Origin: Bythopirellula polymerisocia
Lineage (GTDB): Bacteria > Planctomycetota > Planctomycetia > Pirellulales > Lacipirellulaceae
NCBI RefSeq assembly: GCF_007860015.1
Contig: NZ_SJPS01000001.1
Span: 1,302,001 to 1,366,000 of the forward strand
Length of the DNA stretch: 64,000 nt
Direction of reading: 5' to 3'
In this document: positions 2,741 to 5,314 of the stretch, in pieces
Layout of the letters: every line of letters starts with the position of its first letter
Numbering within the stretch: the stretch's first letter is position 1
Position numbers and translations under genes: made by a program
The notes under the pieces: generated by a model
Told to the model about the DNA's origin: nothing
The model's input: only the letters and a program-made list of their open reading frames with translations
Database searches by the model: none

Positions 2741-3223
2741 TCAGTAGTTTGAGAAGGTAAAACTATAGAACCCTACAGACTTTACGGGGTCCCCCTCGAC
2801 CAATTCATTGACTGCTTCGGTAATGCTGGTCCGGAGAGACTCCAGCGAGGGGTCCGCGATTTCGGTCATTCTCATCTGGCGTACTGCCAGCAGCAACCGA
2901 TGCCGCAGATCGGGGTCAATCTGCTCGAGCTTCTTCTTTGCTTTGGAAAGGTCCTTATGCGCAACTTGCCCGAAGACATGAAAACTGATTTCGGCCCGCT
3001 CCAACTCGGTAAAAGGTTTCGGCAACGTGATCCGATATTCCCCCAGGTCCACTTCTACCAACCGCGCCCGGACGGCAACCGCCCGACGGGCATCCACTAG
3101 GGCCTTGGCGTCGTAGCATCCTGGCAGTGTGCAGCATACACACAAGCAAGCCAGGATTGCTCCGTGTAGGGAGTTTCCAGCGGACTCGGTTGTTCGGGTG
3201 GTCACCTTGGCTGTCTCACTCAT
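2741..3223 (-). CDS. FliL-like lipoprotein (paralogue 1)
   Basis: A 160-residue predicted lipoprotein. The ATG at 3223 puts a hydrophobic stretch and lipobox (LPGC, Cys36) at the N-terminus; the longer upstream frame adds a second unlikely hydrophobic region. The mature part has a FliL-like pattern: a beta-rich start (VDLGEYRITLPKPF), a middle helix with an arginine-rich 'DLRHRLLLAVRQM', the late helix 'LRTSITEAVNELVEGD', then a final strand 'VKSVGFYSFTFSNY'. FliL is normally an inner-membrane protein at the flagellar stator; here the anchor is a lipid and no flagellar gene is nearby. It is divergent from paralogue 2, sharing a ~207-bp intergenic region. Function unknown; the fold assignment is by eye. 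Confidence 0.75.
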   Translation of the reverse strand: MSETAKVTTRTTESAGNSLHGAILACLCVCCTLPGCYDAKALVDARRAVAVRARLVEVDLGEYRITLPKPFTELERAEISFHVFGQVAHKDLSKAKKKLEQIDPDLRHRLLLAVRQMRMTEIADPSLESLRTSITEAVNELVEGDPVKSVGFYSFTFSNY

Positions 3224-3430
3224 GCGAATGCACTGCCTGCAATTCAATACCGGAACGGATGTCACGAACGCTAGAACCGTCAGAATCGGTCCCATCCGGA
3301 TCTGAGACCCTTTTGCAATTATAGGTCGCAAACCGGGGTGCTGTGTGTATGGCCTATGTTTGGGTAGCGAGAATCCTTGTGTTCTCCCAGTCAATCGTCA
3401 CGTTACTTTCAACTGCGCATTCACTGCACA

Positions 3431-3934
3431 ATGTCTAACCCAACATCGAGAAATCCAGAGTGCTTCCGCAAGTCGGGTTTCACTGCCGCTGTGGTGTTGA
3501 TGTGTCTGCTCTTTGCCGGTTGTGGGGGCAGGAAGAAAACGCAGCTTGACGTGTATCTCGATGAGCTGGAGGTTGAGCGGACGCTCGAATCGGTCCAGGA
3601 AGTCCCCGTGGGGACCTACGGAATTGCCAGCGCAATCCCACTGCACGGCACGTCGCGCGAGGAGGACAACACCTTATGGATCCATCTGCGCTTCCAACTG
3701 GTAGTCATTTGTGATCCGTCGGACGAAAAGGCTGTCCTGGCTGCCGCCAAGCGGCATCGAGGGATGCTCGACGACACGATCATCACCGTTTGTCGCAAAG
3801 CAACCAAAGAAGAATTGGAAGACAACCGCTGGGCAACACTCAAGTCCCGCATAATCGACGCCATCCGACCTATCCTGGGCGACGACCGAGTTCGACAACT
3901 CGCGTTCGTCGACTTCAGTTGGGAAGCGATCTAG
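3431..3934 (+). CDS. FliL-like lipoprotein (paralogue 2)
   Basis: A 167-residue predicted lipoprotein: basic N-terminus, hydrophobic core and lipobox LLFAGC (Cys31). The ATG at 3431 gives a proper signal sequence. After a linker, the domain begins 'VPVGTYGIASAIP' and has a long strand 'NTLWIHLRFQLVVIC', a helix with 'RHRGMLDDTIITVCRKAT', a second helix 'LKSRIIDAIRPILGDD', and a terminal strand 'VRQLAFVDFSWEAI'. This order equals that of the neighbours on both sides and resembles the FliL domain. It is followed after 35 bp by paralogue 3 on the same strand. Pairwise identity to the other two is low, so this is an old duplication or independent recruitment. Role unknown. Confidence 0.75.
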   Translation: MSNPTSRNPECFRKSGFTAAVVLMCLLFAGCGGRKKTQLDVYLDELEVERTLESVQEVPVGTYGIASAIPLHGTSREEDNTLWIHLRFQLVVICDPSDEKAVLAAAKRHRGMLDDTIITVCRKATKEELEDNRWATLKSRIIDAIRPILGDDRVRQLAFVDFSWEAI

Positions 3935-3969
3935 GCCCTCCGAAACCCCCGGAAAAACCGAAACCTGCT

Positions 3970-4452
3970 ATGAACACTTCTTTGATGATCAACGACAAGC
4001 GAATTCGCTTCTCAAAGCTGCTGTTGTGCCTGCTCTCAATAGCCTTGGGCACCTCCACCGCGATGGGGCAAGAAGCTCCGGCGGAAGATCAGGGCGCAAG
4101 CGCGTCCCAGGAAGCCACAACTGAAAACGTGGTGCAGCCCAAACTGGACCTGGGCATTATTGAGATCAAGAACCTTGAGCCAACCCGCAATCAAACGTCC
4201 AAAGTGACGTTCGAAATGCATCTGACACTACCTGCTGACACCGATCCCGCGTTGGTGGCCGCCCTCGGTCATTGGCAACATCGCCTACGGGAGCAAGTCA
4301 TCGTAGCAATCCGCGTTGCAGAACTGGGAGACTATCTCGATCCTGAGTTAGTGCGGTTGCGAAAGCAGATCCTCTATCGAGTCAACCGCCTCCTCAAAGG
4401 AACCCAAGCTGAGAACGTCCTCCTGGCAGATTTCACGTTTTCGACAGAGTAG
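3970..4452 (+). CDS. FliL-like exported protein (paralogue 3)
   Basis: A 160-residue protein with a classical signal peptide (hydrophobic KLLLCLLSIALG, cleavage likely after AMG near residue 33) followed by an acidic, Ala/Glu/Gln-rich linker. The domain then shows 'LDLGIIEIKNLEP', the strand 'KVTFEMHLTLPA', the helix 'QHRLREQVIVAIRVAEL', the helix 'RKQILYRVNRLLKG' and the closing strand 'NVLLADFTFSTE', again the FliL-like order seen in the two preceding genes. Unlike them it has no lipobox, so it should be soluble in the periplasm or attached to a partner. It lies 35 bp after paralogue 2 and 58 bp before the DUF2140-like gene, suggesting co-transcription. Confidence 0.75.
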   Translation: MNTSLMINDKRIRFSKLLLCLLSIALGTSTAMGQEAPAEDQGASASQEATTENVVQPKLDLGIIEIKNLEPTRNQTSKVTFEMHLTLPADTDPALVAALGHWQHRLREQVIVAIRVAELGDYLDPELVRLRKQILYRVNRLLKGTQAENVLLADFTFSTE

Positions 4453-4510
4453 CTGTCGGGCCCCCCCTTGGTCCCCCGTTCCTGCAAACGCGTAATATTG
4501 CTCTGATCTC

Positions 4511-5314
4511 ATGATTTTCAATTTCCTCAAACGTTGCTTTTTGGCTTGCGTTCTGGCAACGATGTTCGTGTTTGGAACGGTGGCCGTTTGCTGTGTGCTG
4601 GCCTGCTCGGCACCTGACTTTTACGCATCGGCCATCACGGAGCCCGTGGATGAGGCCGATAACGAAGCCGCGATTAAGGAATTGGAGCAGATTGTCAGTT
4701 CAATGGATCTGTTCCTCAAACTGAACGCATCTGACTTTCAGAAGTTGCAAGCTTTGCCCGAAAATGCGTTTGCCACGTTGGCAGAAGATCAACAGCACGC
4801 GAAGCGCCGTGTGCCATTTGAATTAAAGAGGTTACTCCACTCGCCGAATGTGACACAAGATACTTTTGCGGTTTCATTGACAGAACGGCACATCAACGCG
4901 CTGCTGAGTAAGGAGCTGGGCAAGGATGATGGAGAATTGCGTAGACCGCACGTTTCGCTGGAAGGGGACATGATCCGATTTGCGGTCACCTTGGTTACGC
5001 CTGTGGCCGAAGTTGTGTTGTCTTGTGACTTTGAGCTTGCGAAGACGAACCTGACTGATCTGACATTCGACCTACACGCCGCTCGTGTCGGCAAGCTACC
5101 CCTACCCATCGCGACAGTGCTGAAGCAATACATGCGGACCAATCCAGTTCTGCCACAAGGCATCAAGCTGAATATCGACGGTGAGCGACCAACGCTCTCG
5201 ATCGACGTATTGCCTGACAGTGGCGATCTCCAGCTGGAGGAACTCCACGTAGCAGACGGCAAAATCCACTTCCTGTTCCGCCGCACGATCGACAAAGTTG
5301 TTGTGGCAAAGTAA
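4511..5314 (+). CDS. Membrane-anchored protein resembling YpmS/DUF2140
   Basis: A 267-residue protein with one N-terminal membrane segment (residues ~8-32, 'CVLATMFVFGTVAVCCVLAC') and the rest outside the cytoplasm. The extracytoplasmic part has 'FAVSLTERHINALLSKEL', long alternating strands ('MIRFAVTLVTPVAEVVLSCDFEL'), then 'ARVGKLPLPIATVLKQYM' and 'LPQGIKLNIDGE'. The stretch 'vGKLPLP' followed by an amphipathic helix and a late strand pair is typical of YpmS/DUF2140-type proteins, whose role is poorly known. It is likely the fourth gene of the FliL-like cluster. The family link is moderate; a specific function cannot be given. Confidence 0.7.
   Translation: MIFNFLKRCFLACVLATMFVFGTVAVCCVLACSAPDFYASAITEPVDEADNEAAIKELEQIVSSMDLFLKLNASDFQKLQALPENAFATLAEDQQHAKRRVPFELKRLLHSPNVTQDTFAVSLTERHINALLSKELGKDDGELRRPHVSLEGDMIRFAVTLVTPVAEVVLSCDFELAKTNLTDLTFDLHAARVGKLPLPIATVLKQYMRTNPVLPQGIKLNIDGERPTLSIDVLPDSGDLQLEELHVADGKIHFLFRRTIDKVVVAK

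Follow-up and report, generated by a model that had tools for sequence, protein, structure and literature searches.

FliL is a protein of the inner membrane and forms a ring around each stator of the flagellar motor. FliL domains associate side by side through hydrophobic belts to build rings (PMC6426602), and these rings surround the linker of MotB (PMC10655999). In Vibrio fischeri, a paralogue, FliL2 (VF_2446), is encoded outside the flagellar locus and belongs to the flagellar regulon; its mutant shows reduced motility (PMC3948606). FlgP and MotK/MotE are exported, lineage-specific motor accessories (PMC10954123), to which the proteins described below can be likened by description only. None of FlgP, MotK or MotE was found among the relatives recovered in our searches with these proteins.

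The locus considered here lies in a window of 64,000 nucleotides (the whole stretch of DNA that was analysed) from Bythopirellula polymerisocia, a planctomycete of the family Lacipirellulaceae in the order Pirellulales, and comprises three genes, referred to as A, B and C. Their products have the same domain and fold as FliL (PF03748; structures 6AHP/6AHQ from V. alginolyticus, 7SGN from H. pylori and 9HMF from C. jejuni). FliL has an N-terminal inner-membrane helix and is encoded with flagellar genes. A and B instead carry lipid anchors and C a signal peptide, and the three genes stand away from flagellar genes. In being encoded away from the main flagellar locus they resemble V. fischeri FliL2; the latter, however, is a single monocistronic gene, whereas in A/B/C the paralogue is tripled, with two of the three lipid-anchored. 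A search of the literature found no description of the A/B/C block and no tomographic study of a planctomycete flagellar motor.

Gene Organization, Export Signals, and Distribution

The block and its surroundings contain the following features, with positions counted from the first letter of the window.

Gene A: 2741–3223, minus strand, 160 amino acids; lipoprotein with lipobox LPG↓C and a FliL domain at about residues 45–160.
A–B intergenic region: 3224–3430, no strand assigned; separates A from B, which are transcribed divergently.
Gene B: 3431–3934, plus strand, 167 amino acids; lipoprotein with lipobox FAG↓C and a FliL domain at about residues 43–167.
Gene C: 3970–4452, plus strand, 160 amino acids; secreted protein with a signal peptide and a FliL domain at about residues 56–160.
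Gene D: 4511–5314, plus strand, 267 amino acids; exported or membrane protein with weak similarity to DUF2140/LmeA (TULIP-like).

The coordinates of all four genes agreed with those in a preliminary description of the sequence, which had also recognized two lipoproteins and one secreted protein; the lipoboxes of A and B and the signal peptide of C bear this out. A fixed rule recognized a lipobox in gene A at 44 of 45 loci and in gene B at 43 of 46, and the signal peptide of C was of the cleavable type, with no conserved lipobox. The residue at position +2 after the lipid cysteine was mostly Tyr or Phe in A and Gly in B. Under the proteobacterial +2 rule, which is not established for planctomycetes, such residues send lipoproteins to the outer membrane.

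Searches with A, B and C (phmmer/hmmsearch) found the layout first described, with A divergent and B and C co-directional, intact in all 44 complete loci from this and related genomes; two further loci reach a contig end and were left out of this number. The cluster is conserved in other Pirellulales, the complete loci coming from two families. Because the divergent layout held in every complete locus, the promoters of both A and B presumably lie in the intergenic region. The A–B intergenic regions were scanned for sigma-54-like and sigma-28-like promoters, and none was detected above the shuffled background.

A search of 198 Pirellulales genomes placed the A gene in two families: the organism's own (f1), where 33 of the 34 genomes sampled had it, and a second (f2), where it was present in 12 genomes, all from genera g16 and g18. 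Five of these 12 loci were read and had the same layout; the other seven were assigned from profile score and number of matches. Matches in other Pirellulales families were of the strength of flagellar-operon FliL or belonged to an orphan membrane-anchored paralogue, with no A gene. A scan of named genomes with a narrow alignment gave ten loci.

FliL Domain and Predicted Fold

Against the Pfam FliL profile (PF03748, curated cut-off 24.6 bits), A (28.6 bits) and B (24.8 bits) scored above the cut-off and C (19.9 bits) below it. At E ≤ 10, the profile was matched by 24 of 25 relatives of B (best E 3e-9) and by 14 of 28 relatives of C (best E 4e-6). The same loci were repeatedly found by Pfam FliL across 44 genomes of the family and their layout was constant, so the pattern is not due to chance.

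AlphaFold2 models of the A domain (pLDDT 82, pTM 0.71) and the C domain (pLDDT 92, pTM 0.82) were built on alignments of relatives and compared with the PDB using Foldseek. The 11 best matches were all FliL structures, from Vibrio alginolyticus, Helicobacter pylori and Campylobacter jejuni, at a probability of 1.00 (E 3e-6 to 2e-4, TM about 0.65–0.86), and FliL chains were the sole PDB matches at E ≤ 0.001. As the best PDB matches of the C model were all FliL, C has a FliL fold despite its Pfam score below the cut-off. SPFH/stomatin structures were the second-best fold match of A and C (E about 2e-3 to 1e-2, TM 0.5–0.6), in agreement with the published similarity of FliL and stomatin (PMC6426602); an assignment of A and C to SPFH/stomatin was rejected, all SPFH structures ranking under the FliL structures. 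A sequence search of the PDB with the A/B/C profiles gave weak FliL matches at best.

We conclude that A, B and C are very likely FliL-domain paralogues. The domain had been assigned to all three in the preliminary description, and this was confirmed for A and B by Pfam and for C by its predicted fold, together with profile matches to the organism's own FliL (see below). That description had also held that a FliL-like fold in at least two of the three would support the claim, and the models of both A and C have this fold.

Relation to the Flagellar FliL of B. polymerisocia

The genome of B. polymerisocia (G000) contains flagellar genes, including those for FlhA, rod proteins and FlgI; the flagellar set is on other contigs than A/B/C, which lies on contig C1. 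The organism's own flagellar FliL (G000:C3:698352-698990, equivalent to L081:3552-4190) is a membrane-helix protein encoded directly after MotA-MotB, both identified by Pfam. The A, B and C HMMs matched this protein at 6e-21, 2e-13 and 2e-21, respectively, and profile–profile comparison of A/B/C with its family gave E values of 1e-17 to 2e-14 at a probability of 98–99% (hhalign E for the C profile, 1e-17). Against Pfam FliL, the flagellar protein reached 22.7 bits, below the cut-off that both A and B exceed, which could lead automatic annotation to exchange their roles.

In a tree of 162 FliL domains, A, B and C each formed one clade (support 97/95, 98/98 and 87/96, respectively) with flagellar FliL outside all three; the tree has few columns, and its deeper forks are not resolved. 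Within each of the three clades, family f2 was the sister of the f1 rows. A, B and C are thus three separate ancient paralogues. As each clade spans two families, they either arose before f1 and f2 diverged or moved as a block.

A/B/C are not orthologues of canonical flagellar FliL. They carry lipoboxes or a signal peptide where canonical FliL has an inner-membrane helix at its N terminus and a short end in the cytoplasm, and their genes are neither part of a flagellar operon nor next to motA/motB or fliM/fliN. Nor did they group with flagellar FliL in the tree.

Co-occurrence with Flagellar Genes

FlhA was found in 191 of the 198 Pirellulales genomes, with a strong FlgI match in only 111. Because many FlgI-less genomes keep FlhA, it was rejected as a marker of flagella, and FlgI together with rod proteins was used instead. 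FlhA of Pirellulales may serve another use too; many apparently aflagellate genomes retain it, at least one of them (L190, G242) with FlhF-FlhG-FliA.

FlgI was present in each of the 45 genomes that carry the A gene, and none of the 87 FlgI-less genomes had the A gene, an order-wide association that is strongly clade-structured. One genome without FlhA (G029) was considered as a carrier of the block lacking flagella and was rejected, having a full-length FlgI and three rod proteins; its flagellar cluster is therefore probably missing through an assembly gap. Most flagellated Pirellulales families are without the A/B/C block, which is thus not needed for flagella in general.

In the organism's own family, the A gene was present in 41 of 44 genomes. 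The three genomes without it were G027, which is 58% complete, and G016 and G033, the only two of the 44 without rod proteins (Fisher p = 0.003 for the A gene versus rod genes, kinship not corrected for, the correlation within the family resting on these two losses). Neither G016 nor G033 gave a match to the C profile or to Pfam FliL. G033 had no FlgI match at all; G016 lacked a full FlgI and gave only a partial, weak match like those seen in flagellated relatives. The most informative case is G016, in which a contiguous cluster keeps homologues of FliP, FliN, FliJ, FliI, FliG, FliF, FliE and FlhA-FlhF-FlhG-FliA (FliN, FliJ and FliG named by Pfam, the rest by similarity to the B. polymerisocia cluster and by position). 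Missing from it are FliK through FlgD, FlgE, MotA and MotB to FliL, and FlgB/FlgC. The cluster could be read through without stator, rod or hook genes. The block is thus missing together with these genes, though genes of the export apparatus and rotor persist. Locus L188 (G016:C7:65000-84900), from this genome of the same genus as B. polymerisocia, encodes rotor and export apparatus but neither a stator nor axial components.

Coincidence, whereby an unrelated set of envelope proteins was lost from two reduced or incomplete genomes, would be in line with there being two informative losses only in the family, one of them in a genome (G033) that is 83% complete with 6% contamination. The other loss, however, is in a genome (G016) of 97% completeness whose contiguous flagellar cluster itself is without the stator/hook block, and the A gene was not seen in any FlgI-less genome of the order. 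Coincidence is very unlikely in light of these findings.

Genes beside the Block

No flagellar genes were found beside A/B/C in any locus examined, and the neighbours were housekeeping genes. An early remark that flagellar genes were lacking held for this neighbourhood and failed for the genome as a whole. Gene D scored 25.9 bits against Pfam DUF2140, below the cut-off of 34.3, and among the loci searched it adjoins the block only in B. polymerisocia and its closest relative (G011). With D beside the block in a single relative, membership of a DUF2140-like membrane protein in the cluster, as first suggested, is not supported; gene D is a neighbour and not part of the conserved block. The f1 and f2 loci have only A, B and C in common, the other neighbours differing and, in f2, including ScpB. 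Neighbours restricted to one family (an ECF sigma factor with its downstream gene, a Gfo/Idh/MocA oxidoreductase, an oligopeptide transporter and an LRR protein) look like background synteny and were set aside.

The preliminary description suggested that A/B/C may surround some non-flagellar machine, which is not supported here. A ring or scaffold of lipid-anchored FliL-like proteins at, for example, a pilus, secretion system or transporter of the envelope would accord with the separation of the A/B/C genes from flagellar genes and with the nearness of the FliL fold to SPFH/stomatin scaffolds, and an oligopeptide ABC transporter operon (SBP and permease families) does lie downstream of C in about 20 relatives. 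Transporter genes are, however, absent next to C in the B. polymerisocia window, the block is not accompanied by any non-flagellar system across the two families, and it is not found where rod genes are missing. This reading is unlikely for a flagellated genome with its own FliL after MotA-MotB and a block that is absent where rod and stator genes are.

Proposed Role in the Flagellar Motor

The absence of the block where rod and stator genes have been lost suggests that it is probably an unrecognized accessory of the flagellar motor. On present evidence, A/B/C are likely to be periplasmic accessory FliL paralogues of the motor, acting along with the ordinary FliL of the flagellar operon. By analogy with published FliL ring biology and with the precedent of FliL2, an accessory ring or collar of the FliL type would be their likeliest role. 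The flagellar location, the formation of a ring, its placement towards the outer membrane and its effect on the stator are inferred, as follows. The three FliL domains would assemble side by side, as in FliL, into a ring or collar, each alone or mixed. This collar would sit in the periplasm, at the level of the stator or of the rod/P-ring, with A and B tethered by their N-terminal lipids, probably to the outer membrane, and C carried by its partners. There it would act on MotB within the stator, bracing it against the envelope or gating it. In the fully specified version, the three FliL paralogues, lipid-tethered or soluble, would form one hetero-oligomeric ring on the outer-membrane side of the planctomycete motor; this is possible but less likely than not. 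If true, it would represent a new kind of motor part, in which a stator-ring fold has moved from the inner- to the outer-membrane side. A conserved set of three additional FliL paralogues, two of them lipid-anchored, would show how a motor ring domain is duplicated and re-targeted, and it marks A/B/C as candidates for genes encoding additional components of planctomycete motors.

The same flagellar co-occurrence data could be read as evidence of a scaffold specific to swarmer cells or to the pole, retained only in motile species without being physically part of the motor, for instance in surface sensing or pole organization; FliL has been tied to surface sensing in some bacteria (discussed in PMC6426602). 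Such a scaffold is quite improbable, however, as A, B and C all have the domain of a known motor protein and nothing indicates a separate polar machine.

Apart from the proposed motor accessories, further FliL paralogues were seen in other Pirellulales. Two loci of family f3 (L174:7781-8563 and L175:7385-8116) encode orphan paralogues with an N-terminal membrane helix, no partners and no flagellar genes near. In a genome of another family (G267; L176:6911-8346), the gene for a second FliL paralogue with a membrane anchor comes immediately after a second MotB-like gene. B. polymerisocia has a single FHIPEP protein, whereas g16/g18 genomes (e.g. G132:C10:357603-358631) have a second one, which matches only the C-terminal half of FHIPEP in a frame of about 500 amino acids; both of these genera also have the A/B/C block.
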